DNA of 64,000 nucleotides. Origin: Paracoccus xiamenensis. Its GTDB lineage: Bacteria; Pseudomonadota; Alphaproteobacteria; Rhodobacterales; Rhodobacteraceae. How positions within the stretch are numbered: position 1 is the first letter of the stretch; each line of letters starts with the position of its first letter. The position numbers were made by a program, and so were the translations under genes. The DNA is taken from the NCBI RefSeq assembly GCF_011308835.1, contig NZ_JAAOHY010000011.1, positions 1 through 64,000 on the forward strand. The letters run 5' to 3'. Of this stretch, positions 5,912-27,088 are shown in pieces. Below the pieces are notes generated by a model. The model saw only the letters and a program-made list of their open reading frames with translations. It did no database searches and was not told the DNA's origin.

Positions 5912-6328
5912 ATGTACAACACCTTGTTCCACCGCGGGCCGGAGCCGAGCCACGCGACCCGAGTTCCTGCGCGCCGTTCAAAAGGGAGCCTTCGTGGCTC
6001 GATGGTCGCATCGTTGCCCGGCTTCGAGCGCCCGCGCATCATACACTTCGAGAGTGCGCTCGAATACGCCTTCCTCTGCCTGATGTTGGTACGCCCCGAC
6101 GTGCACAACATCCGCGAACAACCCCCGGCAATATCCTATAAACCTATGCAGCGTGTGCTGAAGCTGAACTTTGCATCCGAGCTCGAAGCTGTTGCAGCCG
6201 CAGTTTCCAAATCCTTTGCAGACCGCGTGCTGCTGGTCACCGACCAGCACATCGATCGGGCTGCCGCTGCCGAAGCGGCTCGGACACTCGCCTGGTCGCG
6301 CCGCTCTCTAACGGAGGTAGCGGCATGA
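5912..6328 (+). pseudogene. TnsA-like transposon endonuclease lacking its catalytic centre
   Basis: From ATG 5912 (MYNTLFHRGPEPSH) the protein shows the TnsA N-terminal features RIIHFESALEYAFLCLM and VRPDVHNIREQPPAISY. In Tn7-like elements TnsA cuts the 5' ends. It needs a Glu, supplied here by the FESALE motif, plus an Asp in a DF strand and a Lys in a following strand. In this protein QPPAISY is joined directly to KPMQRVLKLNFASELEAV, so the stretch carrying the catalytic Asp is absent. The C-terminal part (KSFADRVLLVTDQHIDRA) is intact. The reading frame stays open at 138 residues, and its stop overlaps the tniA start (ATGA), so translation coupling may have preserved it. Alternative start: GTG 5891. 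Confidence 0.65.
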
Positions 6329-8469
6329 CCCTGCGTTTTCGCTTCTCGAACTCCGACATGATCACCACGGCAGGCGTCGCCATGCGCCCGCTAGAAATCG
6401 ATGACAAAGGCGGCACCTTCGAGCGCGTCGGCCAGCCGGGAATTACTGAGGCGTTTTCCCACCAAGAGCTCGCCGAGATGATGCGTCGGCCGGACACGAC
6501 CTACTTTGCCGGGTATTTTGATCGAGCCACCCAAGAGGCCCATCGCGATAAACCTGTGCAGGTCATCAGCGAACTGTCGGAAAAGACCGCACGGCTGGTG
6601 ATCTGGCGGAAGGCCGCCTGTGACGCCTTCCTGGCTCTCGAAGCTGCGGGCCTCGTCAAACGCACTCAGCGGGCCTATGAGCAGGCCAAAGCGCAGCTCG
6701 CATCAGTGACGGCCAGGCTCGTTGGTGAAGGCGCAGCGGCCTTTGCTAAGATACGACCGGGTAAGGAAATAAAAACTCGCAAGCTGCCGGGAAGCCGGAC
6801 AGTCTTGCAGTGGGTCCGCTCCTATCAGGCTGCAGGCTACTCTGCACTTTCGCTCACTCCGGCCACTCACCTATCCGGCAATCGGAGTCGGCGCTGGTGT
6901 CCAAAGGCGGAAGCCCTGATGAACCAGGTCATCGAGATTTACGCCGACACGCAGCAACCAACCAAAGTCCAGTCTATTCAGGAGACTCGGGCACTGTTCT
7001 CCGAAGAGAACGCGCGCAGAGCCAGCGCGGGGGCAACGCCGCTCACGATCCCCTCTGCCTCCAGCGTTAAACGCCGATTGGACTCGGCCGACCCATTCTA
7101 CGTCTGCGCAAAACGACATGGCGCGTCTGCGGCCGCCAGGAAATTTGCCATGAGCAGCAACGGTCCCGATGTCGTGCGCCCCATGGAGCGGGTCGAGATG
7201 GATGAAAACAAGCTCGACGTCATATCGTTACTGACGCTGACAGGCATCTGGGAGCACCTGCCGCCGGATCGGCAGAAGAAATTCGAGACAGGGCGGCGCT
7301 GGATGTATCTTGCGATCGACTGCGCCACGAAATGTGTCGTCTCGATGCGACTGGCTGACAATCCGAACTCGGAAGATGCGATCCGTGCGCTGCGGCAGAT
7401 TTTCGAGGACAAGACCCCACTGGCCCAGGCAGCCGAATGCGAAAGCACATGGCATCATCGTGGCGGGATCGGAACACTTGTGACCGACATGGGGCCTGCC
7501 TTCGTCTCGGATGCCTTCCAGGCCACGGTAGCGTCGCTTGGGGTCACGTCGCATTTGCCGCCAGCTGGAATTCCCTGGATGCGGGGGCACGTCGAGTCCT
7601 TCTTCCGCACTCTCGGGCATCAGCTCATGCCGCTGCTGGCAGGCCGGACTTTCTTCGACACTGTTGATCGCGGCGACTACCCTTCAGAAATGCTCGCCTG
7701 TCTTTGCGACGACGATCTGATCAAGGTCCTGCTGACCTATGTCGTTGATATCTATCACAACCAGCCACACGGCTCGCTGAAAGGGGAAACCCCGAATGCC
7801 GCTTGGAAGCGGCTGGTGGCTGAACACGGGACGCCCCCGGTGCCGGATGGTTTGACCCTCAGGAAGGCATTCGGCAGGCCGATGCCCCGGAAGCTCAACG
7901 ACGAGGGCGTACTGTTCTCGGGGCTTAGCTATAGCTGCGAGGCGCTGCGGGAAGCCTATCTGCACTCCCCCATACGGGAGGTGGAAATCAGGGTCGATCT
8001 GCAGGACATCGGGTGGATCGCCGTCAAGGTCGGAGCCACTTGGTATCCTGCCCTCGCCAATCAACCCGGCTTTGAGGGCGTGAGCTTCGATGAGCTGCGC
8101 GAGGGCATCCGGGCCGTTCGTCACGCACATGCGCGTGCTGCGAAGTTGGACGCGCCCAAGGTCCAGCGGGCTATCGCGCGGATATCGGACGCGAACCGCC
8201 ACGCATTCGCGCTGCGCGCCCTGACACCTTTCCATGTGACCGACGTGGACGTCGCCCGCGCAGATGCTGCACTGCACTATCCGCTCCGCTCTGATGAGCA
8301 GCGGTTGGGATACATGCCGCCGAGCAACGACCTGCTCAATGACGCAATCTCCATTACTCCGCCAACGGACACATCTCGGAAGCCGGACAGCGACGATAAC
8401 GGGCCGATCTCCGAGCGTCGAACGAGACGCAAGAACCGCAGACGCTGGGGGTTCAATGATGGGAAATGA
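6325..8469 (+). CDS. tniA: Transposase TniA/TnsB (DDE, rve superfamily)
   Basis: This 714-residue protein is the strand-transfer transposase of a Tn7/Tn5053-like element. The catalytic triad is visible: Asp293 (VEMDENKLDV), Asp388 (LVTDMGPAF) and Glu424 (RGHVESFFR), giving the DX35E spacing of the integrase core. The N-terminal 280 residues hold HTH-like end-binding regions, and the C-terminal part is a Mu-type beta-barrel plus an ATPase-interacting tail. The start ATG overlaps the stop of the TnsA-like gene by four bases, and its end overlaps tniB by 14 bases, so the genes form one translational unit. The length and all key residues look intact. Confidence 0.95.
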   Translation: MTLRFRFSNSDMITTAGVAMRPLEIDDKGGTFERVGQPGITEAFSHQELAEMMRRPDTTYFAGYFDRATQEAHRDKPVQVISELSEKTARLVIWRKAACDAFLALEAAGLVKRTQRAYEQAKAQLASVTARLVGEGAAAFAKIRPGKEIKTRKLPGSRTVLQWVRSYQAAGYSALSLTPATHLSGNRSRRWCPKAEALMNQVIEIYADTQQPTKVQSIQETRALFSEENARRASAGATPLTIPSASSVKRRLDSADPFYVCAKRHGASAAARKFAMSSNGPDVVRPMERVEMDENKLDVISLLTLTGIWEHLPPDRQKKFETGRRWMYLAIDCATKCVVSMRLADNPNSEDAIRALRQIFEDKTPLAQAAECESTWHHRGGIGTLVTDMGPAFVSDAFQATVASLGVTSHLPPAGIPWMRGHVESFFRTLGHQLMPLLAGRTFFDTVDRGDYPSEMLACLCDDDLIKVLLTYVVDIYHNQPHGSLKGETPNAAWKRLVAEHGTPPVPDGLTLRKAFGRPMPRKLNDEGVLFSGLSYSCEALREAYLHSPIREVEIRVDLQDIGWIAVKVGATWYPALANQPGFEGVSFDELREGIRAVRHAHARAAKLDAPKVQRAIARISDANRHAFALRALTPFHVTDVDVARADAALHYPLRSDEQRLGYMPPSNDLLNDAISITPPTDTSRKPDSDDNGPISERRTRRKNRRRWGFNDGK

Positions 8470-9412
8470 TCTGATCACCCAAGCGGCACAACGGGTCGCT
8501 GAATTGAAGGCATATTTCGTCGATCACGAGCGCTTCGTTCCACTGGCAGAAGGGTTCTCCATCCTTGCGGAGAAAAGGCTCGTAGACATCCAGACCGACC
8601 GTATCAGCGAGGCGCAAGGGCTTGCCCTGTCCGGGCACTCCGGGGCCGGGAAAAGCGCGGCAATCACACATCTTCTTGCCCAAGAAAGGCAGAGGCTGGC
8701 CGATCAGGGATACGGAGATTCAACCATCATCAGCTTGCGGGGGCCATCACCCGCAACACTGAAATTCGTCGGGCAGATGCTGCTTCGGGCGCTCGGCTAC
8801 CCCATCGGTGCCGATCGCCATGCCTGGTACATCTGGGACCTGGTCCAACATCACCTCAAGGAGCGGCGTGTCCTGTTCGTGCATCTCGACGAGGCGCAGG
8901 ACCTAGCGTCGCGGGGGACCAAGCACGAGCTGGATTCAGTGACATCCATGCTGAAGACGCTGATGACGGACCCGGAATGGCCAGTCGGGATCATTCTGTT
9001 GGGCACAAACGAGTTGGAAGACATCCTCAACCACGACCACCAGCTCGCTCGACGCATGAGGACCGTTCGGTTCGAGAGCCTATCCCCTGCCGCATATGGT
9101 GATGATATTCTCGACCTGCTCGAGAACTACTGTGAACTGGCGCAGCTCGGACCAGAGGATGACGTTCTGGATTTATCCCACGGCGAACGCGTGGTCCATG
9201 CTGCCGCAAACCAGTTCGGCATCGCCATCGTCCTGATCCTCGACGCCATCGAGGATGCCTATCTGCATGGCCAGAAGACACTGAACCGGCACAATTTCAT
9301 CAGGGCGTACCATCGGCGGACCTCCTGCGATGCCGAGTTCAACCCGTTTGTCGTTCCGGATTTCATGCGCATCAACGCCCGTCAGGTGTTTTCTCGGGAG
9401 AACCGCACATGA
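8456..9412 (+). CDS. tniB: Transposition AAA+ ATPase TniB/TnsC
   Basis: The start is ATG 8456 (or 8459), inside the end of tniA, giving 318 residues. Walker A is GHSGAGKS (60-67) and Walker B is FVHLDEAQD (141-149, with Asp147 and Glu148 close to the motif centre). A later motif, GTNEL, fits sensor I. TniB/TnsC forms filaments on target DNA and links the TniQ target selector to the transposase. The stop overlaps the tniQ start as ATGA. Confidence 0.92.
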   Translation: MMGNDLITQAAQRVAELKAYFVDHERFVPLAEGFSILAEKRLVDIQTDRISEAQGLALSGHSGAGKSAAITHLLAQERQRLADQGYGDSTIISLRGPSPATLKFVGQMLLRALGYPIGADRHAWYIWDLVQHHLKERRVLFVHLDEAQDLASRGTKHELDSVTSMLKTLMTDPEWPVGIILLGTNELEDILNHDHQLARRMRTVRFESLSPAAYGDDILDLLENYCELAQLGPEDDVLDLSHGERVVHAAANQFGIAIVLILDAIEDAYLHGQKTLNRHNFIRAYHRRTSCDAEFNPFVVPDFMRINARQVFSRENRT

Positions 9413-11202
9413 TGTTTTCGACCGTCAAGCCGTTGCCCTTAAATGTAAAATACCAGAACGGAGAATCCGCAACCTCTCTCGCATCCCGCTTGGCACGTCG
9501 CAACGGCGTGTCAGGCATGGCCATGTTTCTGTCGGACTTCGGGATCGACTATTTGAAACTATCCAATGGCGATCAAGAGGATTGCGCCCGATTGGCTTCA
9601 CTTGCCGGTGTCGATCAGGCGAAACTGCATCGCCACACGCCTGCGCTAGTCTCTCCTGGCTGGTTCCGGTTGGGCATGGAGGAGATCAAGTTCACGGCCT
9701 TCAGCCGAACCGCTCTCAAAGGCTGCCCGCAATGCCTGCAAGACGCCTCAAACCAAAACGATGCTGCGCATTTCGGCCTATGGCAGTTGACCTCAATCCG
9801 CACCTGCTGCTTGCACGGCTGCTACCTCACTCCGTTGCCCACGTCGTCTGGGACGCGAGAGCGGTTCGACGTCATCAAGCTGACCTCTGGCTTTTCACCA
9901 CCAGAACCCCAAATCGCGAACGATCAGGACCTTTTGTTCGAGTGCTACCTAAGAAACAGGATCGAGAAAGGGCCTGCGAAGACGTGGCTCGACCGGTTGC
10001 CCTTCCATGTTGCGGCGCAGACGTGCGAGGGCTTCGGGCTCCTGCTGACCCTTGGCCCGAAAGCCCGGCGAGAAACAGTGACGCCGGCGGAATGGGCGGC
10101 TGCAGGCACTGCTGGTTATGATGTCCTGCGTCATGGGCCAGACGCGTTCCGGCAGAAGTTGAAGGATATCCAAAAGGCTCATCCGGTCGACAACACCCTC
10201 TACCGGACCCGCTATCGCGTCTTCTTCGAGTGGCTGCGCCACCGTGACGACGACCCTCAGTTCGATGTGATCCGTGATCTGGTGCGAGAATTCATCTTCC
10301 GCAACTTTCCGATCTCCGAAGGCTACATCGTTCTGGGCCAGCCTTGCCCGGAACAATACGTTCATTCGCTTTCGACGGCGCGCTCGCGCTATGGCATGTC
10401 CGGCTGGAAGTTGGCGCGTCGCCTAGCCTCGATGGGACTCGCAGAGAGAAAAACATCAGGGCAGGGTTTCGTGCTGACTGGCTATGTTCCCACGGAAATC
10501 ATCAATGACATCGCGACCGATTTCGATGACCTCCTGAACGCCGCCGATGCAGGAAAACACCTTGGCGTCGAGCGTTTCATGATGACCAAGCTGACGAAGC
10601 CCGGGCTGGTTGAGAAGTACTTCGACGAAAAGAATGCCTCGCCGATGTATCATCCACGCGATCTCGATGGGTTCCTTGGGAAGCTGCGGGCGCGCGTCGA
10701 GCGCCCCAAATCGGAGGACCTACTCGACATTGCGACGGCATCGCATCGTGTCCGCATACCGACCGAGCGCGTGGTCGAAATCATTCTGAGAAACCGCCTT
10801 CCGCTGCATGCGGTCGACCCTGCCACCACGCGTTTCCCGGATTTCCGCGTGTCGCTCGCCGTGCTACGGGAGGTCATCGCTACCGATCACCATGGAGCCG
10901 TTCGGCCGACCCGGGCCGCGAAGATCCTCGGTATCAATATCCGGACGATCCGCAGTCTGATGGACACGGGCGTTCTGAAATCTTGCGACATAGAGGAGCT
11001 GAAGAGCGGCCGAATGCGACGGTACGTCTGCGCCAAGTCGATGGAGCGGTTTTCCAAGAGTCACATCTCGGTGGTCGAACTGGCGACGAAGAGCGGGCGG
11101 CTGCCAGGCGTAGAGGCCGTGATCCAACTTGATCGCGGGGCGAAGCCGCTACCGTTGGAGCCACGCGCCAACATGATTTTCAGGCGAAACGACGTTCTCT
11201 AA
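9409..11202 (+). CDS. tniQ: Target-selection protein TniQ/TnsD-like
   Basis: This is a 597-residue protein with an N-terminal TniQ domain. The paired cysteines CPQC (after TALKG) and the CCLHGCYLTPLP motif form the zinc-binding part. The remaining 400 residues include HTH-like segments near the C-terminus (RAAKILGINIRTIRSLMDTG). Its length is closer to TnsD-like site selectors than to short TniQ proteins of Tn5053 or CRISPR-associated elements (about 400). This suggests targeting of a specific site through its C-terminal DNA-binding part, but no target site could be identified. It is the last gene of the operon and is followed by an intrinsic terminator. Confidence 0.9.
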   Translation: MMFSTVKPLPLNVKYQNGESATSLASRLARRNGVSGMAMFLSDFGIDYLKLSNGDQEDCARLASLAGVDQAKLHRHTPALVSPGWFRLGMEEIKFTAFSRTALKGCPQCLQDASNQNDAAHFGLWQLTSIRTCCLHGCYLTPLPTSSGTRERFDVIKLTSGFSPPEPQIANDQDLLFECYLRNRIEKGPAKTWLDRLPFHVAAQTCEGFGLLLTLGPKARRETVTPAEWAAAGTAGYDVLRHGPDAFRQKLKDIQKAHPVDNTLYRTRYRVFFEWLRHRDDDPQFDVIRDLVREFIFRNFPISEGYIVLGQPCPEQYVHSLSTARSRYGMSGWKLARRLASMGLAERKTSGQGFVLTGYVPTEIINDIATDFDDLLNAADAGKHLGVERFMMTKLTKPGLVEKYFDEKNASPMYHPRDLDGFLGKLRARVERPKSEDLLDIATASHRVRIPTERVVEIILRNRLPLHAVDPATTRFPDFRVSLAVLREVIATDHHGAVRPTRAAKILGINIRTIRSLMDTGVLKSCDIEELKSGRMRRYVCAKSMERFSKSHISVVELATKSGRLPGVEAVIQLDRGAKPLPLEPRANMIFRRNDVL

Positions 11203-13539: not shown

Positions 13540-14532
13540 ATGAACCAAGCAGCTTCGAAACATGTTCAGCCGCGCCCGCCGCTTTTCACCCGACAATTTC
13601 GTGCCGTAGCCTTTCTGACCGGCGCAGTCGTTGCGGCGGCCCCGACATTCGCCGCGGAAACAGGCGTTGGCTTCTACCTACTGGGCTCAAAGGGCCCCGG
13701 AGCGGGAATTGTCCCGCCGCCCGGCGTTTACGTTCAGAACGACCTGTATTTCTACTCCGGGTCAGCCGATGCAGACCGCCAATTTCCGGTTGGCGGAGAA
13801 ATCATTGCCGGTATTGACGCAAACGCCCAGATCAACTTGACTTCGGCGCTTTGGTCCACGCCTTGGCAGGTATTGGGCGGCAATGTCGCCTTTACGGCCA
13901 CCCTGCCCTTCGGCGCCCAAGATGTTTCTGCCTCTGCCTTCATTCCGGGCATCGGGCTTGGGCGTGCCGTCGACGACGACCTCTTCACGCTTGGCGATCC
14001 CGTTGCCGGCGCGATGATTGGCTGGCATTCGGGCAATCTGCATTGGAATGTGGGCACCCTGATCAATGTCCCGATCGGCAACTATCAGGAAGGCGAGATA
14101 GCCAACCTTTCGTTCAATCACTGGGGCGTTGACATTTCGGGCGCGGCGACCTGGCTTGATCCGACGACCGGACTGGACATCTCTGGGGCGGCAGGTTTTA
14201 CCTTCAACGCAGAAAACCCAGAAACCGACTATCGCACCGGAACAGAATTTCATGCCGAATGGGCGATTTCCAAGGCTGTGTCACAAGACCTCTCGTTGGG
14301 AATTATAGGATACTATTACAAGCAAATCTCTGGCGACAGCGGCGACGGCGCGCGCCTTGGCGATTTCAAGGGCCAGGTCGCGGCAATCGGCGGGACTGTC
14401 GGGTATAATTTCATGGCTGGCAGCACGCCGGTTTCGCTGCGTGCCAAGATCTACCGCGAATTTTCGGCCCGAAACCGATTGGAAGGAACCGCAGGGTATC
14501 TGACTGTTTCGGTGCCGCTAAACATAAGATAG
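13540..14532 (+). CDS. Outer-membrane protein, MetA-pathway-of-phenol-degradation type
   Basis: This 330-residue protein starts at ATG 13540 with AGGAG upstream. A Tat-less but long signal region (FRAVAFLTGAVVAAAPTFAA) is followed by GVGFYLLGSKGPGAGIVPPPGVYVQND, very like the Phenol_MetA_deg/SphA-type porins that import hydrophobic substrates. The barrel pattern continues to a terminal strand (TAGYLTVSVPLNIR). It is paired with the barrel gene upstream and may serve uptake of hydrophobic or aromatic compounds, but the substrate is unknown. Confidence 0.8.
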   Translation: MNQAASKHVQPRPPLFTRQFRAVAFLTGAVVAAAPTFAAETGVGFYLLGSKGPGAGIVPPPGVYVQNDLYFYSGSADADRQFPVGGEIIAGIDANAQINLTSALWSTPWQVLGGNVAFTATLPFGAQDVSASAFIPGIGLGRAVDDDLFTLGDPVAGAMIGWHSGNLHWNVGTLINVPIGNYQEGEIANLSFNHWGVDISGAATWLDPTTGLDISGAAGFTFNAENPETDYRTGTEFHAEWAISKAVSQDLSLGIIGYYYKQISGDSGDGARLGDFKGQVAAIGGTVGYNFMAGSTPVSLRAKIYREFSARNRLEGTAGYLTVSVPLNIR

Positions 14533-14563
14533 CACTTCTGCATACAGACCCCATCGTGCGGCG

Positions 14564-15631
14564 CTAAGTCAAAGAAATACTGTATTCGGCGGGTGTCATC
14601 CCGGAATGCTTGCGGAATGCCCGGGCGAAATGCGCTGACGAGGAGTACCCCAGCAACGAAGAGACTTGGCCGATCCTCATATTTCCATCACGCAAAAGCT
14701 CGCTCGCGCGTTGGCATTTCGTAAGTGTAACCAAATCGCGGAAAGAAAATCCTTCACGATTCAGCTCTCGCTGCAGTGTGCGCTTGCTGATATCCAGGGC
14801 GAATGCCGTGCGGTCCAGGTCTACACGCCCAGATAGAATTTGGGTTCGCAGATAGCATTTCACCGCGCCCATCAGGCTGTCACGCGTACAGGGTTCCAGC
14901 CTTTCGCGCGAAAGATCCTCAATCGTGACGGGCGGCAGGTTGGGCGTCCGTCTTTTAGCGGTAAGGTTGGCCGAAGGAAAAACAACACCAACTACCGGTC
15001 GATCAAACAGAACCGGACACCCGAAAATATCTTCGTATACAGGCGAATTTGCTGGCTTCGGAAAGTTCAGTTCGATCTGCGTCGGAACCCAGTCGTCTGA
15101 GATGTATTTTTTAACGATACTCAGAATGACGCCTGCCGTCCCAAACCCTTCGTGCTGATACCTGCTGTCCGTCGCATTGGTGCTGAAATAGCAGACTCTT
15201 GCAGATCCATTAGAAATCGAAAAATCCAACCTGTCACCGAAGCTATGATAACCGACGCTGCGTTTTGTACGTTCAAGCGCCTCGTGCAGCGTCTGCGCGC
15301 CCAGGACATAACCCGCCCATATGCGATAACGGTCGAAGCTTAGATACGGAACAAGGCGAAGTCCCAGATGATGTTCGCCGGCTTGTCGCGCGACGCTGTC
15401 GATGAATACGGTCAGCGTTCTGTGCGGAATAAAGCAATCATATCCTTCGATCCGATCTATTTCCAATCTTGCTGCCTGATTGGCGCGCTGCAGGACGCGG
15501 GATCCAAAATTTTCAGCGACGAATTGTGGAATACCTGACAGAACCTCGACGCAGATCAGCCCTGGACCAACGCGATTTTTACAGTTCGGCTGTTCGGCCA
15601 CTGGCGCAAAATGGGTGTTCGCGGGTGGCAT
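14564..15631 (-). CDS. AraC-family transcriptional regulator
   Basis: The 355-residue protein has an N-terminal ligand-binding region of the arabinose-binding type found in QhpR/OruR-like regulators. The C-terminal AraC double HTH is clear: FALDISKRTLQRELNREGFS, then IGQVSSLLGYSSSAHFARAF and KHSGMTPAEYS. It is transcribed divergently from the small barrel gene at 15767, with a 135-base shared control region, and convergently to the MetA-type gene. It probably controls one or both neighbours. The ligand is not apparent. Confidence 0.88.
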   Translation of the reverse strand: MPPANTHFAPVAEQPNCKNRVGPGLICVEVLSGIPQFVAENFGSRVLQRANQAARLEIDRIEGYDCFIPHRTLTVFIDSVARQAGEHHLGLRLVPYLSFDRYRIWAGYVLGAQTLHEALERTKRSVGYHSFGDRLDFSISNGSARVCYFSTNATDSRYQHEGFGTAGVILSIVKKYISDDWVPTQIELNFPKPANSPVYEDIFGCPVLFDRPVVGVVFPSANLTAKRRTPNLPPVTIEDLSRERLEPCTRDSLMGAVKCYLRTQILSGRVDLDRTAFALDISKRTLQRELNREGFSFRDLVTLTKCQRASELLRDGNMRIGQVSSLLGYSSSAHFARAFRKHSGMTPAEYSISLT

Positions 15632-15766
15632 GAAGTCCTCTAACTTAGCCGGTGCAAATTAGTCTAGAATCGTTCTCATGCTGCAATCAACTGCGCATGC
15701 GAAGATGTAAATCTTCACCATGGAGTTGGCGACAGTTTTCCCTGCACTCGCGAAAGGAACCTCAAT

Positions 15767-16513
15767 ATGCGTGGCTTTGCTCGCATTACGACGACCAGCA
15801 TTTTCTGTCTCTGCGCATCACAGGCATACGCACAGCAGACCGGCTGGGACTATCGGCTGACAATGTACGGCTGGCTGGCCGGGCTTGATCAGTCGATCGA
15901 AACCCCACGCGGCACAATTGACGGCAACCTTCACGTCAGCGACGTGCTAGAGGGGCTTGATATGGCGCTGATGGGAACGTTCGAGGCGCGGCGTGACCGC
16001 TGGGGCATCATTACCGATCTGGTCTATTCGGACCTGTCCCTGACCAAGGAAAACCCGCTCCGGGGGGCTTATTCCTCGGCCGAGATGTCCCCACGCATGA
16101 CCGCGTTGACGATGATGGGCGCCTACCGCGTCAGCCAGAGCGATAACATGTCTGTCGATCTGGCGGCGGGGCTTCGCTATATGAATGTCGATATTGATAC
16201 GACCCTGAAGCCCGGCAGCTTGGCCGGAAGAGAGTTCGATCTGGACGATAGCTGGGTCGATCCCGTCATCGGAATGCGCGTATCGGGCAAGTTCAATGAA
16301 AAATGGTATGGCAGCGTATATGCTGATATTGGCGGGCAGCTCGACGGCGACAACTCGGCCTGGCAGGCACTTGCCTATGTTGGCTATGCGTTCAACCCGA
16401 CCTGGTCGGCAGAGTTCGGATACCGCCATATGCATGTCGAAAAGGAAATCCGGAACAGCGATGTTTCGCTGGAACTGTCAGGTCCGATGATCGGGGTTAC
16501 CGCGCGCTTCTAG
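15767..16513 (+). CDS. Outer-membrane beta-barrel protein
   Basis: ATG 15767 follows AAGGAACCTCAAT. The 248-residue product has a signal peptide ending AYA-QQ and an alternating strand pattern (WDYRLTMYGWLAG, LMGTFEARRDRWGIITDLVY, WSAEFGYRHMHVEKE). It ends in a strand with terminal phenylalanine (MIGVTARF), the signature recognised by the BAM machinery. It is divergent from the AraC-type regulator gene, which suggests regulation by it. Function unknown. Confidence 0.8.
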   Translation: MRGFARITTTSIFCLCASQAYAQQTGWDYRLTMYGWLAGLDQSIETPRGTIDGNLHVSDVLEGLDMALMGTFEARRDRWGIITDLVYSDLSLTKENPLRGAYSSAEMSPRMTALTMMGAYRVSQSDNMSVDLAAGLRYMNVDIDTTLKPGSLAGREFDLDDSWVDPVIGMRVSGKFNEKWYGSVYADIGGQLDGDNSAWQALAYVGYAFNPTWSAEFGYRHMHVEKEIRNSDVSLELSGPMIGVTARF

Positions 16514-16561
16514 CGCCGCCCGCGAGAGGCCAATCTTCAAGACTCGACCGCGATGACGCAT

Positions 16562-16601
16562 AAATGACTGGCGGCAGCCAAGGGGCTGCCGCCAGTCATT
16601 T
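16562..16601. terminator. Strong bidirectional terminator
   Basis: A perfect 18-bp stem (16562-16579 with 16584-16601) surrounds an AAGG loop. The stem ends in AAAT/ATTT, and it lies between two convergent genes, the barrel gene and the DUF1254 gene, so it can serve both. Confidence 0.85.
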
Positions 16602-16706
16602 GACGTTGAAGGGATTAGGGTGCCGGCCGGGGCGGCGCAGCGGAACAGGCATGACCGTCCAGGCCTTGGTCCGACCGGCCATGTGATGTCGCTGTTGCGG
16701 GCCGGC

Positions 16707-18326
16707 TCAACCGGCCGGGGTGACCTCTTCTATCTCGCTTGGTTGCCAGCTTTTGTCGAAGAAGGATGGCAGCGGACTGTAAAGGCGCAGAAGCGTAAAC
16801 CATCCCTTTTCCGGGTCGGTCTGGATCCAGTTGCCGCGCGCCACGCCTTCGGGCTGGGTCGGGCCGAAATAGATCGTTGTCGTACCATCGCTTGCCGCTT
16901 CTGCCGCCGGCGAGGGATAGCCCTGGCTGCCGGCGCGCGGGTATTTCTGCGGCGTTTGCAGCATAGAGCGGGTCTGGTTGTCATAAAGCGTAAGGGACCA
17001 GAAAGCGGCGGCCGGGATATCCTTCGGCAGTTCCACCTTATAGGTCTTCGCGCCATCGAACGACTCGCCGTTCGCGTCGAGGAACCCCATCAGATATTGC
17101 GAGCCGACACCGGGTATCCGCATGATCATACCCGGAGAATCCAGCGTATAGCCGTAATAGAAGGCCGCGCGGGAATCGAGCGTACGGGCCCCGGTCGGCT
17201 CTAGCGGTTTGAATGCCCCATCTTCAAACAGCGGAGGTGGTGTTTCGAAGAATGCGCCCCCTTCCCACAACATGTTCCCCCAGTGCGAGCCATCGTAATA
17301 GGCCCATTCCGGATGCTTCATTGCATAGCGCCAGTTCAGCGCCCGCCCCGTCGCCTGCCCTACCGCGGCGGCATCGGTCAGGATCGCCTTCATCCGATCA
17401 TCGGGCGCGAACGGCTTTCCATGCACGATTCCGATCGCGGCAAGCTGGCCCGCCAGCTCTGGATCATAACTGGTGGCCGGCTCGTTCTGGACGTTCTCGT
17501 TGATCAGTTCAAAGAAGCCATAGTCACTGGGCGGGATGGTGTTGAACGAACGGCCCGAGGCCTCAATGAATTTCGTTTCGGGAATTTTCGGCTCATCTGC
17601 AATGTGCACGGTGCCCTCAAGCGCCTGCGCAATACTGGTGCCGAATGCGCCGGGCTGGTAGGGGTATACCTTCATCGTCCGCTTGATGTTCTCGACAGCA
17701 GGCTTCGGGTCATTGTCGACCAGGTTGGCCCGCGATGCGTAAAGCGCAAAGTTCGTTTTCGAATGGGCAATGAAATATCCCCCTTCCGGCAGCGGGCCAT
17801 CATAATCCGGGCCGACGATCAGGTATTTTCCACCCAGGCCGCGATCCGGTCCCGGACCGCCGATATCGACAACCCATGAAAACCACATATCATTGATCGT
17901 GCCAGTAGCCCCTGACGGCTGTTCGATCACCACCGGCCCGTTGCTGAGATCGAGACCGGTAAAATAATAGATCGTGTCGGCATTCGCGGTCAAAAACAGC
18001 GAATTGGAATCCATCAGCTCGGAAAAGATGACCACGTCACCCGGATTGGCGCCGACATCCTGCACGCCTTTGGCAATTGCAAGGGCCGACGCTCCCCTGA
18101 AGCTGTTGTTGTAAACGTTCAATGCCCGCGTGAAATCGATGATGTCATACACCTTTTCTGCCGCTTCCTGCGTCGGCACCCCGTCGCGAAATTCCAGCGT
18201 ACCAGCACGCGTATCAACGGTGGCGGGGATCGAAAGCGCCTCAACGATTTCTTTCGTCACATCTGCGTGGCCCGTGCCTAATGCGAAAATAGTCGCGGCG
18301 CTGCTGATCAAGGTTCGGCGGATCAT
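16707..18326 (-). CDS. DUF1254/DUF1214 periplasmic protein
   Basis: ATG 18326 is chosen because it begins a signal peptide (MIRRTLISSAATIFALGTGH). An in-frame ATG at 18356 adds ten residues and leaves the signal less typical. The 539-residue protein has an N-terminal DUF1254 region (TRALNVYNNSFRGASALAIA, NADTIYYFTGLDLSNGPVVI) and a C-terminal DUF1214 region (TYKVELPKDIPAAAFWSLTL, then the YDNQTRSMLQ and DPEKGWFTLLRLYSPL segments). Proteins of this type are widespread and exported, with no settled reaction. It stands alone between the envelope genes and the benzoate operon, 279 bases from pcaD, so it may have its own promoter. Confidence 0.88.
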   Translation of the reverse strand: MIRRTLISSAATIFALGTGHADVTKEIVEALSIPATVDTRAGTLEFRDGVPTQEAAEKVYDIIDFTRALNVYNNSFRGASALAIAKGVQDVGANPGDVVIFSELMDSNSLFLTANADTIYYFTGLDLSNGPVVIEQPSGATGTINDMWFSWVVDIGGPGPDRGLGGKYLIVGPDYDGPLPEGGYFIAHSKTNFALYASRANLVDNDPKPAVENIKRTMKVYPYQPGAFGTSIAQALEGTVHIADEPKIPETKFIEASGRSFNTIPPSDYGFFELINENVQNEPATSYDPELAGQLAAIGIVHGKPFAPDDRMKAILTDAAAVGQATGRALNWRYAMKHPEWAYYDGSHWGNMLWEGGAFFETPPPLFEDGAFKPLEPTGARTLDSRAAFYYGYTLDSPGMIMRIPGVGSQYLMGFLDANGESFDGAKTYKVELPKDIPAAAFWSLTLYDNQTRSMLQTPQKYPRAGSQGYPSPAAEAASDGTTTIYFGPTQPEGVARGNWIQTDPEKGWFTLLRLYSPLPSFFDKSWQPSEIEEVTPAG

Positions 18327-18605
18327 CGTTTTGTTCCTGTTCGGGTGTTGCGGCATTTGCAATGCATTCAACAACGGCTTCGGAGCAGGCATTACCCCGG
18401 TGGCGGATCTTCTTCGCCATCCAATTCCGAACCGCGTCGCCGAAATCCTAGCGCCGCCGGCCGTTCCAATCAGCAACCATTTTGCGCCAAGTGTTTGTAA
18501 TCAGGCAATTGAACGCAGCCCCGGCATGCGACTCCATCCCGTATGCGCAGATCAAATCCTATGCTGCCGGGTGATGGCAGAAGATTTGCCTGCGTGGCCG
18601 GCAGC

Positions 18606-20784: not shown

Positions 20785-21570
20785 TCAGCCCGTGTCGCCG
20801 CCAGCGACGGGCAGGACAGAGCCGGTGATGTAGGATGCCTCGTCCGAGGCCAGGAACAGGATCGGTGCGGCCTGCTCCGCGATGGTGCCATAGCGGTGCA
20901 TCAGCGCCGTCTGCTTCACCTGATCGACAACCTGCGACATCCATGCCTTTTCGGCCTCGCTGTCGCCTTCGGCGTTGCGGGGGATGCGGCGGGGCGGCGC
21001 TTCGGTGCCACCCGGCGCGGTGGCGACGACGCGGATATTATCGCCGGCCAGCTCCATCGCCAGCGACTGGGTGACGGCGTTGATGCCGCCTTTGGCCGCC
21101 GAATAAGGGACGCGATGAATGCCGCGCGTCGCGTTCGAGGACACGTTGACGATGGTGCCACCGCCGCGCGCCAGCAGATGCGGAATGACCGCGCGGCAGC
21201 AATAAAGCGTCGGCATCAGCGAGCGGCGGATTTCGGCGTCGATCTGATCGGGCTGAAATTCGGCATAAGGCCGCATGCGGATCGCGCCGCCGACATTGTT
21301 GATCAGGATGTCGATGCCGCCGAAAGTTTCGACGGCATGGCGCATCGCGGCCTCGGCACCGCCCCACGTCTCCAGATCGGCATTGAAACCGACTGCGCCA
21401 TTGCCTGCCTCGGCCGCCACGTCGCCTACGAAGTCGGCGCGGTCGACCAGCAGGACGCGCCCGCCCTCGGCTGCCGCACGCAGGGCGACGGCGCGACCGA
21501 TCCCCTGCGCGGCGCCTGTCACGACCAGCACCTTACCCGCGAAGCGGTCGGGAAAGACGGCGCCGTTCAT
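20785..21570 (-). CDS. benD: Benzoate cis-diol dehydrogenase
   Basis: This is a short-chain dehydrogenase of 261 residues starting at ATG 21570, which overlaps the benC stop (ATGA). It oxidises and decarboxylates the 1,2-dihydroxy-cyclohexadiene carboxylate made by BenABC to catechol, using NAD. The cofactor motif is TGAAQGIGRA, NNVGG follows, the catalytic serine is in NVSSNATRG and the Tyr/Lys pair in PYSAAKGG. Confidence 0.93.
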   Translation of the reverse strand: MNGAVFPDRFAGKVLVVTGAAQGIGRAVALRAAAEGGRVLLVDRADFVGDVAAEAGNGAVGFNADLETWGGAEAAMRHAVETFGGIDILINNVGGAIRMRPYAEFQPDQIDAEIRRSLMPTLYCCRAVIPHLLARGGGTIVNVSSNATRGIHRVPYSAAKGGINAVTQSLAMELAGDNIRVVATAPGGTEAPPRRIPRNAEGDSEAEKAWMSQVVDQVKQTALMHRYGTIAEQAAPILFLASDEASYITGSVLPVAGGDTG

Positions 21571-22595
21571 GCGACCGCCTTCTGGGGCTCGTTGGGGGTG
21601 AACTTCTCGTAATGGAAGCTGGCGGTATTGACGTTGTTTTCGTCCAGATAGTGGCGGACGGCATCGACCATCGGCGGCGGTCCGCACAGATAGACATCGA
21701 CGCCCCCCCCAGCCAGCATCTCTTCGGGCATGTGCTGCGTCACCCAACCCTTGCGCGGGTGGTCCGAGGCCCCTTCCGCAACCACGGTGGCAAAGGTGAA
21801 GTTCGGCAGCCGCTCGGCATAGGCGGCCAGTTCGTCCACCAGAACCAGATCCAGATCGCGGGTCACGCCATAGATCAGGTGGATCTGGCGCTGCGATCCG
21901 GCGCGGGCCATGACCTCCAGCATCGACAGGAAGGGCGCAAGGCCGGTGCCGCCGGCAAGAAACAGCAGCGGGCCTTCGCCGTCGCGCAGATAGAAGCTGC
22001 CCATCGGGCCGGTCAGGGTCAGTGCGTCACCCGCTTTCGCGCCGGCCAGCCAACCGCTCATCACCCCGTCGGGTATCTTCTTGATGAGAAAACCGATCTG
22101 CGCCTCACCCGGCGCGGTGCTGAAGGAATAGGAGCGATGCGCCCCGCTGCCCGGCACGTCGATATTCACATACTGCCCCGGCAGGAAAACCGGCGCGGTG
22201 GCCGCGTCATCAACGGCCAGTTCCAGCACCACGGCAGCGTCGTGATGCGGCGCGATCCGAGTCACGGTGGCGGCAAAGCTTTGCTGGCCGGTCTTGCAGG
22301 CCTGCGAACTCATCGGCACTGACAGCACGCAATCCGAGGTCGCGACCATCTGACATGTCAGGACAAGGCCCTCCTCGGCCTCGTCCTCGGTCAGGGCGTC
22401 TTCGATATAGTCGTCGCCCATATCATAGCTGCCGCTTTCGGCCTTGCATTTGCAGGTGCCGCAGACGCCGTCCGAACAGTCCATCGGCAGGTTGATCTTG
22501 TTGCGATAGGCGGCGTCCAGAACCTTTTCGCCTTCCTTGCAGTCAACGAAACGGGTGATGCCGTCTTCAAAATTCAGTGCGATCCTGTAGCACAT
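21567..22595 (-). CDS. benC: Benzoate 1,2-dioxygenase reductase component
   Basis: The 342-residue electron-transfer protein passes electrons from NADH to the BenAB oxygenase. It has an N-terminal plant-type [2Fe-2S] ferredoxin (DCSDGVCGTCKCKAESG, with the last cysteine in VLTCQ). This is followed by an FAD domain with RSYSFSTAP and an NAD domain with LFLAGGTGLAPFLSM and a terminal CGPPPMVDAV. The gene lies 32 bases after benB. Confidence 0.95.
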   Translation of the reverse strand: MCYRIALNFEDGITRFVDCKEGEKVLDAAYRNKINLPMDCSDGVCGTCKCKAESGSYDMGDDYIEDALTEDEAEEGLVLTCQMVATSDCVLSVPMSSQACKTGQQSFAATVTRIAPHHDAAVVLELAVDDAATAPVFLPGQYVNIDVPGSGAHRSYSFSTAPGEAQIGFLIKKIPDGVMSGWLAGAKAGDALTLTGPMGSFYLRDGEGPLLFLAGGTGLAPFLSMLEVMARAGSQRQIHLIYGVTRDLDLVLVDELAAYAERLPNFTFATVVAEGASDHPRKGWVTQHMPEEMLAGGGVDVYLCGPPPMVDAVRHYLDENNVNTASFHYEKFTPNEPQKAVA

Positions 22596-22627: not shown

Positions 22628-23137
22628 TCAGACGTGGTAGACGTCGATGACCTGGCGGATGTAGTCGTTCTTCAACACGATCTTCTTGGCGGCGATCAGC
22701 AGCCCGCCGTCGGCCCGGCGCAGGGTCACGAACATGGTCCCGAAAAACTGATCCGTGGTCTTGTAGCGGTGGTTGAGGGTGTGGAAGTTGTAGCGGACAT
22801 CCATCTCATCCCCGCGATCCTCGATCACCTCGACATTCTGGACGGCGTGGCTGGTGCGCGGCTCAGGCGTGGAGGCACCCGAACGTTCGGTCTTGATGCG
22901 GAAGACGCGGTCTTCCAGCCCGCTGCGGTCGGGGTAATAGATCAGCGAGATTTCCGATTGCGGGTCCTCGGTCGGCTGGTCGTTGTCGTCCCATGCGGGC
23001 ATCCAATAGGTCGCATCGGGCGCATAGCATTCCAGCCATTCGTCCCATTCGCGATCATCCAGCAGGCGCGCCTCACGGTACAGGAAGGCGCAGACGGCGT
23101 TGTAATCCGTGGTGGCTGTGATGTTATCGAGGCTCAT
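22628..23137 (-). CDS. benB: Benzoate 1,2-dioxygenase small (beta) subunit
   Basis: ATG 23137 (MSLDNITATTDYNAV) gives 169 residues, the usual size for ring-hydroxylating dioxygenase beta subunits with an NTF2-like fold. Typical motifs are LLDDREWDEWLECYAPDATY and a C-terminal RQVIDVYHV. In the ancestral arrangement its start overlapped the benA stop (ATGA at 23137-23134). Because benA now stops early, 53 bases separate the benA amber codon from this start, which may weaken translational coupling. Confidence 0.94.
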   Translation of the reverse strand: MSLDNITATTDYNAVCAFLYREARLLDDREWDEWLECYAPDATYWMPAWDDNDQPTEDPQSEISLIYYPDRSGLEDRVFRIKTERSGASTPEPRTSHAVQNVEVIEDRGDEMDVRYNFHTLNHRYKTTDQFFGTMFVTLRRADGGLLIAAKKIVLKNDYIRQVIDVYHV

Positions 23138-23190
23138 GCCGCTTCTCCCTTCTTCTCGGACGCCAGCGCATCGCGCATGACCTGCGCCCA

Positions 23191-24486
23191 CTATTCGTGC
23201 TGCACGACGAACAGCCCCTCATCCTCGCTGCGCTCGCCCGACACGACCGGGTTGATGCCAATGCGTTTGGCGTTGTCGTCCGGGCCGTGGATCCAAAGCG
23301 GCGCACCGCGCGACATGTCGTTCCACAGCGGCGCGGCATAGGCGGTCTGGCAGGCACGGAATTCCTCCAGATCGTCCGATGTCCCCATGCCCGAGACGTT
23401 GAAGAAATCTTCGTATTGGCGGATGCGGTTGGCGCGGTCCTCGGCGCTTTCGCCCTTGGGGCCGAAGCAGAAGATGGTGACTTCGGTCTTGTCGACGCCA
23501 AGCGGGCGGACGACGCGGATCTGGGTGCTGAACTGGTCCATCAGGAACACGTTCGGATAAAGGCACAGGTTGCGGGTCTGGTTGACGATGAAGCCGGCCT
23601 TGTCCTCGCCCAGACGGGCGGCGATTTCCTCGCGGCGGTTATAGACCGGGCGCACCTCTGGGTTCTTGGTGTTGGTCCACAGCAGGATATGGCCGTTGTC
23701 GAAACCGTAAACGCCAGCGACCGATTTGCTCCAGCTATTCGCGTCCACGGCCTTGGTGCCGGTTTCGGCGCGGCGGTCCATGGTGGTGGCATAGTTCCAA
23801 TGGACCGAGCTGACGTGATAGCCGTCACAGCCGTTTTCCATCTGAAGCTTCCAGTTGCCGTCATAGATGTAGGAGGAATTGCCGCGCAGCACCTCCAGCC
23901 CTTCGGGGGCCTGATCGACGATCTGGTCGATGATGGTGGTGGTTTCGCCCAGATATTCCTGCAAGGGCGCGACGTCGGGGTTCAGGCTGCCGAACAGGAA
24001 TCCGCGATAGCTTTCGAAACGTGCAACCTTGGTCAGATCATGCGAGCCATGGGTGTTGAACTGCTCGGGATATTGGGTGGTCTTGGCGTCCTTGACCTTC
24101 AGCAACTTACCGGTGTTCGAGAAGGTCCAGCCGTGGAAGGGACAGGTAAAGCTGCCCTTGTTGCCCTGCTTGCGGCGGCACAGCATGGCACCTTTGTGCG
24201 CGCAGGCATTGATGACGGCGTTCAGCTCGCCCGTTTTGTCGCGGGTGATGACGACGGGCTGCCGACCGATCCAGGTGGTGTAATAGTCGTTGATTTCCGG
24301 GATCTGGCTTTCATGGGCCAGGTAGACCCAGTTGCCTTCGAAGATGTGCTTCATCTCCAGTTCGTAGAGGTCTTCGTTGGTGAAGATATCGCGGCGGCAG
24401 CGGTACAGGCCGGCTTCGTGATCGTCTTGCACGGCCACCTTCAGCAGGTGGTCCAGTTCGCGGGCTTTTTCGATGATCGCGGACAT
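23191..24486 (-). CDS. benA: Benzoate 1,2-dioxygenase large (alpha) subunit, shortened by an amber codon
   Basis: ATG 24486 with AAGGAG upstream begins a Rieske non-heme iron oxygenase that hydroxylates benzoate. The Rieske ligands are Cys95 and His97 (CAHKG) and Cys115 and His118 (CPFHGW). The mononuclear iron histidines are in [10 protein letters not shown]. The frame stops with TAG at 23193-23191 after VVQHE. Directly beyond it the same frame reads WAQVMRDALASEKKGEAA and ends in TGA overlapping the benB start, so the ancestral protein had 450 residues and this one has 431. A Tyr-Trp pair at this position is usual, so TAT or TAC to TAG is the likely change. It could also be a sequencing error. 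Confidence 0.93.
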
Positions 24487-24604: not shown

Positions 24605-25543
24605 TCAGGCTGCGGCGCGGCGGCGCTGTTCGTTGATCTGGTTGTCGACACCGTCGACAAGCGCGGTCAGATGCATGTCGAAGCTGATTTCGGCGAAGGG
24701 GCCGTTCAGGTTGTTGGCGCGGATGCTTTCTTCGTCGCTGCGTTCGACCACATGCGGGACCAGGCCTTCGCGGGTGGCATAGGCGAAATCATCATCGATC
24801 AGCGGGTCGCCCTCGATATTGATCTGGGTGGTCAGCTTGCGATGATCGGGCGCGCTGACGAACAGATGGATATGGGCGGGACGCTGGCCGTGGCGGCCGA
24901 GCGCCGTCAGCAGCTTTTCGGTCGGGCTGCCGGGGGGCACACCGTAACCGCTGGGCAGGATGCTCTGGAATTTATAGCGGCCCTGATCGTCGGCGATGAT
25001 GGTGCGGCGCATGTTGAAATCGGATTGCAGCCCGGTCGGGTCAAAATGCGAATAGAAGCCGCGGGTGTCGCAATGCCAGACCTCCACCTGCGCGCCGGGC
25101 AGCGGTTTGCCGTCAGCGCCGTGGACGGTGCCATGCATGATCAGCGTCTGGCCGTCGGTGTCGCGGCCATCGTCCAGACGGGCAAAGCCCTGTTCGACCG
25201 GCGCACCCGCCACATAAAGCGGGCCTTCGATGGTGCGCGGCGTCGGGTTTTCGATGCCCAGCTCCGCGTCGATGGCGTCCAGCCGTTCGTCGATGAAGTG
25301 ATCGAGCCCGAGGCCGGGCGAGATGAGACCCGCCTGACCGGCGGCGCCCAGATCGTTCAGCCAGGCGACGCCCTGCCAGTATTCGTCGGGGGTGATGTTC
25401 AGGTCGTCGATGGCGCGGAACAGGTCCGACATCAGCCGGTGGGTGATTTCCTTCATGCGCGGATTGCCATCGGCGCTGTTCAGCCCGCTAAGCTCGTTCA
25501 GGAATTCCTGAATGTCGGGACGGTCGAATATCTTGACGGTCAT
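24605..25543 (-). CDS. catA: Catechol 1,2-dioxygenase
   Basis: ATG 25543 with AGGAGG upstream gives 312 residues. It performs intradiol cleavage of catechol to cis,cis-muconate. The Fe(III) ligands fall at exactly the positions known in Acinetobacter CatA: Tyr164 (RGFY), Tyr200 (PSGYG), His224 and His226 (RPAHIHLF). The N-terminal helical linker domain that forms the dimer is present. It lies between catC and benA in the operon. Confidence 0.96.
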   Translation of the reverse strand: MTVKIFDRPDIQEFLNELSGLNSADGNPRMKEITHRLMSDLFRAIDDLNITPDEYWQGVAWLNDLGAAGQAGLISPGLGLDHFIDERLDAIDAELGIENPTPRTIEGPLYVAGAPVEQGFARLDDGRDTDGQTLIMHGTVHGADGKPLPGAQVEVWHCDTRGFYSHFDPTGLQSDFNMRRTIIADDQGRYKFQSILPSGYGVPPGSPTEKLLTALGRHGQRPAHIHLFVSAPDHRKLTTQINIEGDPLIDDDFAYATREGLVPHVVERSDEESIRANNLNGPFAEISFDMHLTALVDGVDNQINEQRRRAAA

Positions 25544-25607
25544 TTGGGTTCTCCTCCTGGATTCATATTGAAACTGGGCGGGACGGCGTTTTGCGGTCCC
25601 GTTGGGA

Positions 25608-25898
25608 TCAGCTGTCGTCCTCTCGAATTGCAGACGGGTGGCGCAGCAGCGGCGTGACCGTGATTTCCATGAACGGAAACAGGGGCAGGCCGGACAGGAT
25701 TTCGTGCAGTTCCGCATTGTCCCGCACATCGAGAATGCTGACATTCGCGTATTGGCCGGCGACCCGCCAGATATGGCGCCACTTGCCCTGACGCTGAAGT
25801 TCCTGCGAATAGGCCTTTTCGCGGGAAAGGATCTCGGCCCGTTCATCGGCGGGCAGATCGCGCGGGATCTTCACGTCCATCGTCACATGATACAGCAT
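25608..25898 (-). CDS. catC: Muconolactone delta-isomerase
   Basis: ATG 25898 (MLYHVTMDVKIPRDL) is chosen over a GTG at 25904 because family members start MLYHV and GGAAGG lies 7 bases upstream. The 96-residue enzyme converts muconolactone to 3-oxoadipate enol-lactone. It starts two bases after the catB stop, so the two are translationally coupled. Confidence 0.95.
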   Translation of the reverse strand: MLYHVTMDVKIPRDLPADERAEILSREKAYSQELQRQGKWRHIWRVAGQYANVSILDVRDNAELHEILSGLPLFPFMEITVTPLLRHPSAIREDDS

Positions 25899-25900
25899 TG

Positions 25901-27088
25901 TCACACCTTCCTTCCGGCCAGGCTGATCGTCTTGCGAATGCCGTCGCGGGAAAAGAAGGCCACGCGGTCATCATCCAGCGTCACGCCAAGGCCGGGGCCT
26001 GTCGGCACGGTCAGCTCGAAATCGCTGTAATCCAGCGGCTCTGTCAGGATTTCCTCGGTCAGCAGCAGGGGGCCGAACAGTTCGGTGCCCCATTGCAGAT
26101 TGGCGAAAGTGGCGAAGGCATGGGCAGAAATCACGGTGCCAACCGCGCCCTCCAGCATGGTGCCTCCGTACAGCCCGATCCCCGCAGCATCGGCGATGGC
26201 GGCGACGCGCAGCGCGTTGAAGGCACCGCCGCTTTGTTCCAGCTTGACCGCGAAAACATCGGCGCCGTGGGTCCGGGCCAGTTCAAACGCGCTTTCCGGG
26301 CCGGTCAGCGATTCATCGGCCATCAGCGCGACCGGGAAGCGGCGCACCAGCCGGGTCAGCGCGGCGGTATGGGCGACGGGCTGTTCCACCAACTCGCATC
26401 CCGCATCTGCCAGCGCGGCCATGCCAAAGGCGGCATCGCTTTCGCTCCATGCCATATTCACATCGACGCGCACCGCCGCCCGGTCGCCAAGCGCCGACTT
26501 GATCGCCGCCACATGGGCAATGTCGTCGCGGATCGCGCGGGCACCGATCTTCAGCTTGAAGACATTGTGGCGGCGCAGGTCCAGCATCCGCTCGGCCTCG
26601 GCAATATCGCGGGCGGTATCACCCGAGGCCAGCGTCCATGCCACTGGCAGCCGGTCACGCCTCCGCCCGCCCAGCAACTCGCTGACCGGCAGGCCAAGCC
26701 GTTTGCCCTGCGCATCCAGCAACGCAGTCTCAATAGCGGATTTGGCAAAGCGGTTTTCGCGGACCATCTTGCCGATGCGGGCCATCAGCGCCTGCACACG
26801 GGTCGCATCCTGACCAACCATCACCGGCGCGACCCAGCAGTCGATATTGGTCTTCATGCTTTCCGGGCTTTCGCCGCCATAGGCCAACCCGCCGATGGTG
26901 GTGCCTTCGCCCACACCGACGATCCCGTCGCTGCAATGCACGCGGACAAGCATCAGCACCTGTCCGTTCATGGTGGCAACCGACAGCTTATGTGGCCGTA
27001 TCGTCGGCAGATCGATGATCACCGTTTCCACCCGCGTGATGACCGGGGCGGCGGTGCCTGTGGCGAAAGGGGCGTGTGACTGTTCCAT
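25901..27088 (-). CDS. catB: Muconate cycloisomerase
   Basis: This 395-residue enolase-superfamily enzyme lactonises cis,cis-muconate. Catalytic residues are visible: the KLK motif at 178-180 (FKLKIG), metal ligands Asp209 (RVDVN), Glu235 (VEQP) and Asp258 (MADES), and Lys282. It is the first gene of the operon, divergent from the LysR-type regulator with a 166-base gap containing the operator. Confidence 0.95.
   Translation of the reverse strand: MEQSHAPFATGTAAPVITRVETVIIDLPTIRPHKLSVATMNGQVLMLVRVHCSDGIVGVGEGTTIGGLAYGGESPESMKTNIDCWVAPVMVGQDATRVQALMARIGKMVRENRFAKSAIETALLDAQGKRLGLPVSELLGGRRRDRLPVAWTLASGDTARDIAEAERMLDLRRHNVFKLKIGARAIRDDIAHVAAIKSALGDRAAVRVDVNMAWSESDAAFGMAALADAGCELVEQPVAHTAALTRLVRRFPVALMADESLTGPESAFELARTHGADVFAVKLEQSGGAFNALRVAAIADAAGIGLYGGTMLEGAVGTVISAHAFATFANLQWGTELFGPLLLTEEILTEPLDYSDFELTVPTGPGLGVTLDDDRVAFFSRDGIRKTISLAGRKV

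Follow-up and report, generated by a model that had tools for sequence, protein, structure and literature searches.

The benA gene in the window that we analyzed, a 64,000-nucleotide stretch forming the start of contig C2, raises the question of what an in-frame amber codon close to its 3′ end means for the enzyme it encodes and for benB, the gene that follows it. The first-pass annotation had placed this amber at codon 432 of a gene whose ancestor encoded 450 residues, and when we recounted the frame we arrived at the same coordinates, the same codon number, the same tail residues, and the same ancestral length. The start ATG of benA lies at 24486, directly preceded by GGAAGGAGAACTC, and the open frame now runs for 431 codons rather than the ancestral 450, leaving it 19 codons short. 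The interrupted gene is laid out as follows.

23134..24486, minus strand: benA, benzoate 1,2-dioxygenase large subunit; frame formerly 450 codons long before the TGA, now broken at codon 432
23191..23193, minus strand: premature TAG at benA codon 432, with the frame counted from the ATG at 24486
23137..23190, minus strand: post-stop benA tail of 18 codons, WAQVMRDALASEKKGEAA; predicted second part of a C-terminal helix (residues 421-449)

The ancestral TGA of benA, at 23136-23134, overlaps the benB ATG at 23137-23135 on the minus strand, an ATGA overlap that is also present in 96 of the 114 distinct relatives described below. The gene order on that strand is catB, catC-like, catA, benA, benB, benC, benD, a transporter gene, and pcaD, and the proteins encoded by benB, benC, and benD all score above the cut-offs of their respective models.

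22628..23137, minus strand: benB, small subunit; TIGR03232, 250.6 bits (cut-off, 225.55); no internal stop; native ATG within ATGA
21567..22595, minus strand: benC, reductase; NF040810, 552.8 bits (cut-off, 430); no internal stop
20785..21570, minus strand: benD, diol dehydrogenase; NF040811, 435.8 bits (cut-off, 380); no internal stop
24605..25546, minus strand: catA, catechol 1,2-dioxygenase; TIGR02439, 439.3 bits (cut-off, 392); open
25608..25904, minus strand: catC-like ORF, muconolactone isomerase, 98 amino acids; open
25901..27088, minus strand: catB, muconate cycloisomerase; TIGR02534, 558.4 bits (cut-off, 334.95); no internal stop

The catC-like gene is presumably a muconolactone isomerase gene, a name that suits its position between catA and catB, an arrangement repeated in another genome. 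The transporter resembles aromatic-acid/H+ symporters and scores 379.4 bits with TIGR00895, below the cut-off of 418.55. Upstream of the aromatic cluster, at 6325-11202 on the plus strand, the window holds three consecutive ORFs for an integrase-core transposase, a TniB-like ATPase, and TniQ, which we take to be a Tn5053-type TniABQ element; the transposase ORF gave a weak rve match (29.2 bits, under the Pfam cut-off of 32.6), and its partners matched PF05621 (TniB-like) and PF06527 (TniQ). Between these genes and pcaD, at 13540-18476, lie genes for a Phenol_MetA_deg protein (PF13557), an AraC-type regulator, and a DUF1254/DUF1214 protein; these genes may form another cluster linked to aromatic compounds.

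In its benA-benB-benC-benD order, in the catB, catC-like, and catA genes upstream, and in its Rieske and alpha domains, the window gene is like the benA of other benABCD operons. TIGR03229 was the best model for its product, by about 300 bits, and the Rieske [2Fe-2S] domain (PF00355, 72.6 bits) and the ring-hydroxylating alpha domain (PF00848, 61.8 bits) were both above cut-off. The TIGR03229 score lay below the cut-off of 780.95 in all three forms of the protein that we scored, at 745.8 bits with the stop given as X, 749.9 bits with the stop given as Y, and 734.8 bits for the truncated form. Three intact Paracoccus BenA proteins also fell under this cut-off (745.0, 749.4, and 745.2 bits), such that the model alone would not name them BenA. 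What sets the window gene apart from other members of the TIGR03229 family is the stop at codon 432, with 431 open codons instead of 450 and without the full-length C terminus and its conserved Trp. Truncation lowers the score by no more than the step between 749.9 and 734.8 bits, a loss likely to escape an annotation pipeline.

We then compared codon 432 across relatives. The nearest named relatives of this benA belong to Paracoccus, in a listing of the top 80 out of at least 591 relatives. Besides the window's own gene we used 124 loci, which include those top 80 and the best 30 places of a genus search and thus represent a sample rather than a full census; 123 of them cover codon 432, and a 32%-identical paralogue (L002), the match to which stops at query residue 380, was left out. 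Nine pairs had identical benA genes, each probably one genome present in two collections, which reduced the 123 loci to 114 distinct genes. None of the 114 has a stop at codon 432, which encodes Tyr in 82, Asn in 11, His in 10, Phe in 8, and Gln in 3, and all 114 have Trp at position 433, in agreement with the earlier remark that Tyr-Trp is usual at this site. The first-pass annotation had also named the opposite outcome, that homologues commonly end here, as one that would speak against it; not one of the 114 ends near residue 431, and the tail past codon 432 spans 14 to 32 residues in all of them and exactly 18 in 71.

The search of 125 genomes of the genus listed 36 near-full-length benA places (64 to 100% identity, own included), and none of the other 35 contains an internal stop, leaving the window gene as the only interrupted one; two short benA fragments in genome G100 also contain stops. 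In the family search, which covered an even sample of 394 genomes from a larger group, 16 genomes matched at E ≤ 1e-150, and the 15 besides our own were without an internal stop.

Apart from the amber, the window gene is well preserved. Its nearest relative among those listed, in genome G049 (the same benA as that of locus L096, Paracoccus marinaquae XHP0099), is 96% identical, encodes Tyr at codon 432, and differs from the window gene in the tail by one amino acid. Measured against G049, dN/dS was 0.061 for benA codons 1 to 431, 0.093 for benC, 0.077 for benD, 0.030 for catA, 0.109 for catB, and 0.19 for benB. In a 37-sequence alignment, the window BenA deviates at none of the 226 columns with 95% or higher conservation in the 36 relatives, such that the amber is the single damaging change that we observed in the gene, and no internal stops occur in the seven neighbors tested, which comprise ben, cat, pca, and transporter genes. 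This preservation fits a recent mutation, and it fits a sequence error or a harmless truncation equally well. Weighing it together with the evidence that follows, we consider it probable that the amber arose recently by a single-base nonsense mutation at Tyr432, is private to this strain, and damages an otherwise well-preserved benA.

Two further signals of selection were sought and set aside. In the post-stop tail, the 2.5 synonymous and 1.5 nonsynonymous differences across 18 codons were too few to reveal relaxed selection, and conservation of the tail gives no clear evidence because the tail also carries the Shine-Dalgarno-like site of benB. The dN/dS of benB was the highest of the six genes, as compensation for an altered partner might produce, but benB varies among three relatives as well.

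A sequencing or assembly error, in which case the true codon would be a sense codon and BenA would be normal, is an unlikely explanation but the first to be weighed. The stop is found in one assembly only, a draft of 3.64 Mb in 21 contigs, and the good preservation of benA and of the operon genes tested is what such an error would leave behind. Against it, the genome is 99.98% complete with 0.04% contamination and seven other operon genes are uninterrupted, although neither figure bears directly on this one base. A second strain of the same species was not found among the matches listed from a plasmid collection (20 of 62 records), the best of which was 85% identical over the whole query, with 2 of the 62 in the 90 to 95% band over an unstated length.

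If the amber is a true nonsense mutation, as we favor, translation would end after residue 431 and yield a BenA without its last 19 residues, including the invariant Trp and the greater part of the C-terminal helix of the catalytic domain. When the read-through protein was modeled with AlphaFold2 (mean pLDDT, 64; pTM, 0.73; core weak), that helix fell at residues 421 to 449, with block pLDDT values of 83 and 75 over residues 431 to 450. When the model was compared with known structures by VIA-align, all 50 entries listed were solved Rieske oxygenases that reach model residue 438 or beyond, and 39 of these 50 reach at least residue 441, where the ranges give the first and last aligned residues only; the region past residue 431 thus appears to be common to the fold. 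Since the invariant Trp433 and most of this predicted, shared helix would be lost, harm to folding or assembly is likely, and the earlier suggestion that the dioxygenase may be impaired can be put more firmly on the strength of the alignment and the model. The truncation would be expected to destabilize the alpha subunit or weaken its assembly with BenB, and the conversion of benzoate to the cis-diol would be reduced or abolished. A literature search at the title and abstract level found nothing on a Rieske oxygenase alpha subunit truncated at its C terminus and no report joining benzoate dioxygenase, benA, and a nonsense mutation.

The same data bear on whether the truncation is tolerated, that is, whether a 431-residue BenA folds, assembles with BenB, and works, making the stop nearly neutral. 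The last residues of the protein vary in sequence, tail length varies among the relatives, and the loss in TIGR03229 score is small, all of which would suit a dispensable C terminus. We nevertheless think this quite unlikely, given a Trp433 without exception, the conservation beyond it (Met437 in 29, Arg438 in 28, Ala440 in 34, and Glu444 in 31 of 36 aligned relatives), the minimum of 14 residues that every relative retains past codon 432, and the extension of all 50 listed structures past the point of truncation.

The first-pass annotation had further proposed that benB loses its coupling to benA. Two elements at the junction bear on this claim.

23189..23191, minus strand: new GTG in the benB frame; one-base overlap with the TAG; adds 18 residues ahead of the native BenB start
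23145..23151, minus strand: Shine-Dalgarno-like AAGGGAG upstream of the native benB ATG, within the codons for Lys-Lys-Gly-Glu in the benA tail

The part of the claim that concerns the native ATG holds up, in that coupling there should suffer with the new TAG lying 53 nt away, but the loss need not extend to BenB itself, which may persist through the retained AAGGGAG and the new start. According to PMC10666635, a distance of 38 nt in E. coli cut reinitiation by 80 to 90% in two gene pairs and abolished it in a third, while other studies cited there found coupling that bridged 73 nt or 150 to 850 nt. The sequence upstream of the native benB ATG reads GAGAAGAAGGGAGAAGCGGC, and the same or a similar stretch is present in three relatives; since AAGGGAG has been kept, de novo initiation at the native ATG is also possible. 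For one E. coli gene pair, bioBF, a de novo start at full efficiency is reported.

At 23193-23189 the stop and the new start together read TAGTG, and from there the frame continues open into benB, giving an ORF (22628..23191) of 187 amino acids with a GTG start. Reinitiation pairs have a 1- or 4-nt overlap of stop and start in the right frame, and TAGTG has this geometry; three relatives have CTG where the window has GTG. Both the native ATGA and the one-base overlap of TAGTG are like the termination-reinitiation overlaps (ATGA, TGATG) treated in PMC6728339 and PMC10666635. Unlike the known pairs treated there, the new junction has a GTG start with no Shine-Dalgarno-like stretch seen by eye just ahead of it and is a by-product of mutation, such that its use is putative. 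Every relative examined has a Trp codon next, such that any amber at codon 432 would create TAGTG, the appearance of which is therefore no evidence of design. We infer that the new GTG could serve as a benB start and that BenB may still be made, through its own site or through this GTG. The frames of benB, benC, and benD are open, and all three would possibly still be translated, with benB initiated either at its native start, served by the Shine-Dalgarno-like sequence, or, through reinitiation, at the new GTG. Masking of the benB ribosome-binding site by RNA structure was considered and rejected, as 183 of 200 shuffled versions of the 111-nt region folded equally well or better.

The geometry of TAGTG allows a reading in which one substitution has shifted the benA-benB boundary, with immediate reinitiation at TAGTG, an extended BenB, coupling kept, both subunits changed where their genes meet, and a shortened enzyme that is maybe partly active. 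We consider this reading decidedly improbable.

Read-through, in which decoding of the amber would be frequent enough for full-length BenA to be made, had also been allowed for by the first-pass annotation, but it fared poorly. Preserved sense codons follow the stop and a near-cognate tRNA-Tyr is present, as read-through would lead one to expect, although the preservation of the tail is ambiguous given the benB site within it. All 44 Rfam tRNA matches in the genome were typed with ARAGORN, 30 on loci L126 to L155 and 14 on other stretches. The tRNA-Tyr gene was absent from the Rfam set and was located by a pattern that also admits a CTA anticodon, which gave 10 places of which 1 was a real tRNA, with anticodon GTA. 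None of the 45 typed tRNA genes has a CTA anticodon or reads UAG, and we discarded an amber-suppressor tRNA as a cause of read-through, bearing in mind that a Rfam search that omitted tRNA-Tyr might likewise miss an unusual suppressor tRNA. Release factor 1 (RF1) is present (profile over cut-off), and TAG ends 1 of the 23 window ORFs whose stops were listed, consistent with TAG being a functional stop; neither a decoding tRNA nor a recoded genome was thus found. Because no UAG-reading tRNA occurs among the 45 and RF1 is present, efficient read-through is very unlikely.

Returning to the nonsense mutation as the preferred reading, we asked whether the strain has another route and whether benA has been lost elsewhere in the genus. 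A second benA was not found in its genome, where the next match is only 32% identical, and a profile search of the same genome found no boxB, in a search that exceeded the cut-off in 0 of 14 control genomes and so stands without a positive control. Among the 125 genus genomes, catA exceeded the TIGR02439 cut-off in 33, and 30 of these 33, own included, have a full-length benA place with at least 80% identity (listings compared by hand). The exceptions are G043, G085, and G100, which have catA without such a benA, and G044, where a benA of this kind occurs but no catA above the cut-off.

The stretch of G100 (contig C195; locus L185, 2795-3548) carries a decayed benA, the fragments of which correspond to residues 1 to 26, 31 to 149, and 300 to 397, and beside them catB, catC, and catA are single continuous matches. 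No match to benB, benC, or benD was found on the G100 stretch examined, the contig ending about 1.7 kb past the last fragment and the genome being 86% complete. Elsewhere in the genus, benA has therefore been lost while the catechol branch was retained. The window gene is like this pseudogene in being a damaged benA next to continuous catB, catC-like, and catA genes, and unlike it in showing one damaging change instead of three benA fragments with no benBCD on the stretch. In our strain, too, the catechol branch would stay open and could serve other sources of catechol.

Growth of this strain on benzoate is probably weakened or abolished. The event is of an ordinary kind, nonsense pseudogenes of catabolic genes being a known class already, and it bears on the annotation and phenotype of one strain, with no general principle at stake. 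A pipeline that sees the catechol and ben genes would predict benzoate use, though the first enzyme is probably broken. The locus may also serve as a small natural experiment in two respects, on the need for the C-terminal helix in a Rieske oxygenase alpha subunit and on the effect of a premature stop on a coupled downstream gene.
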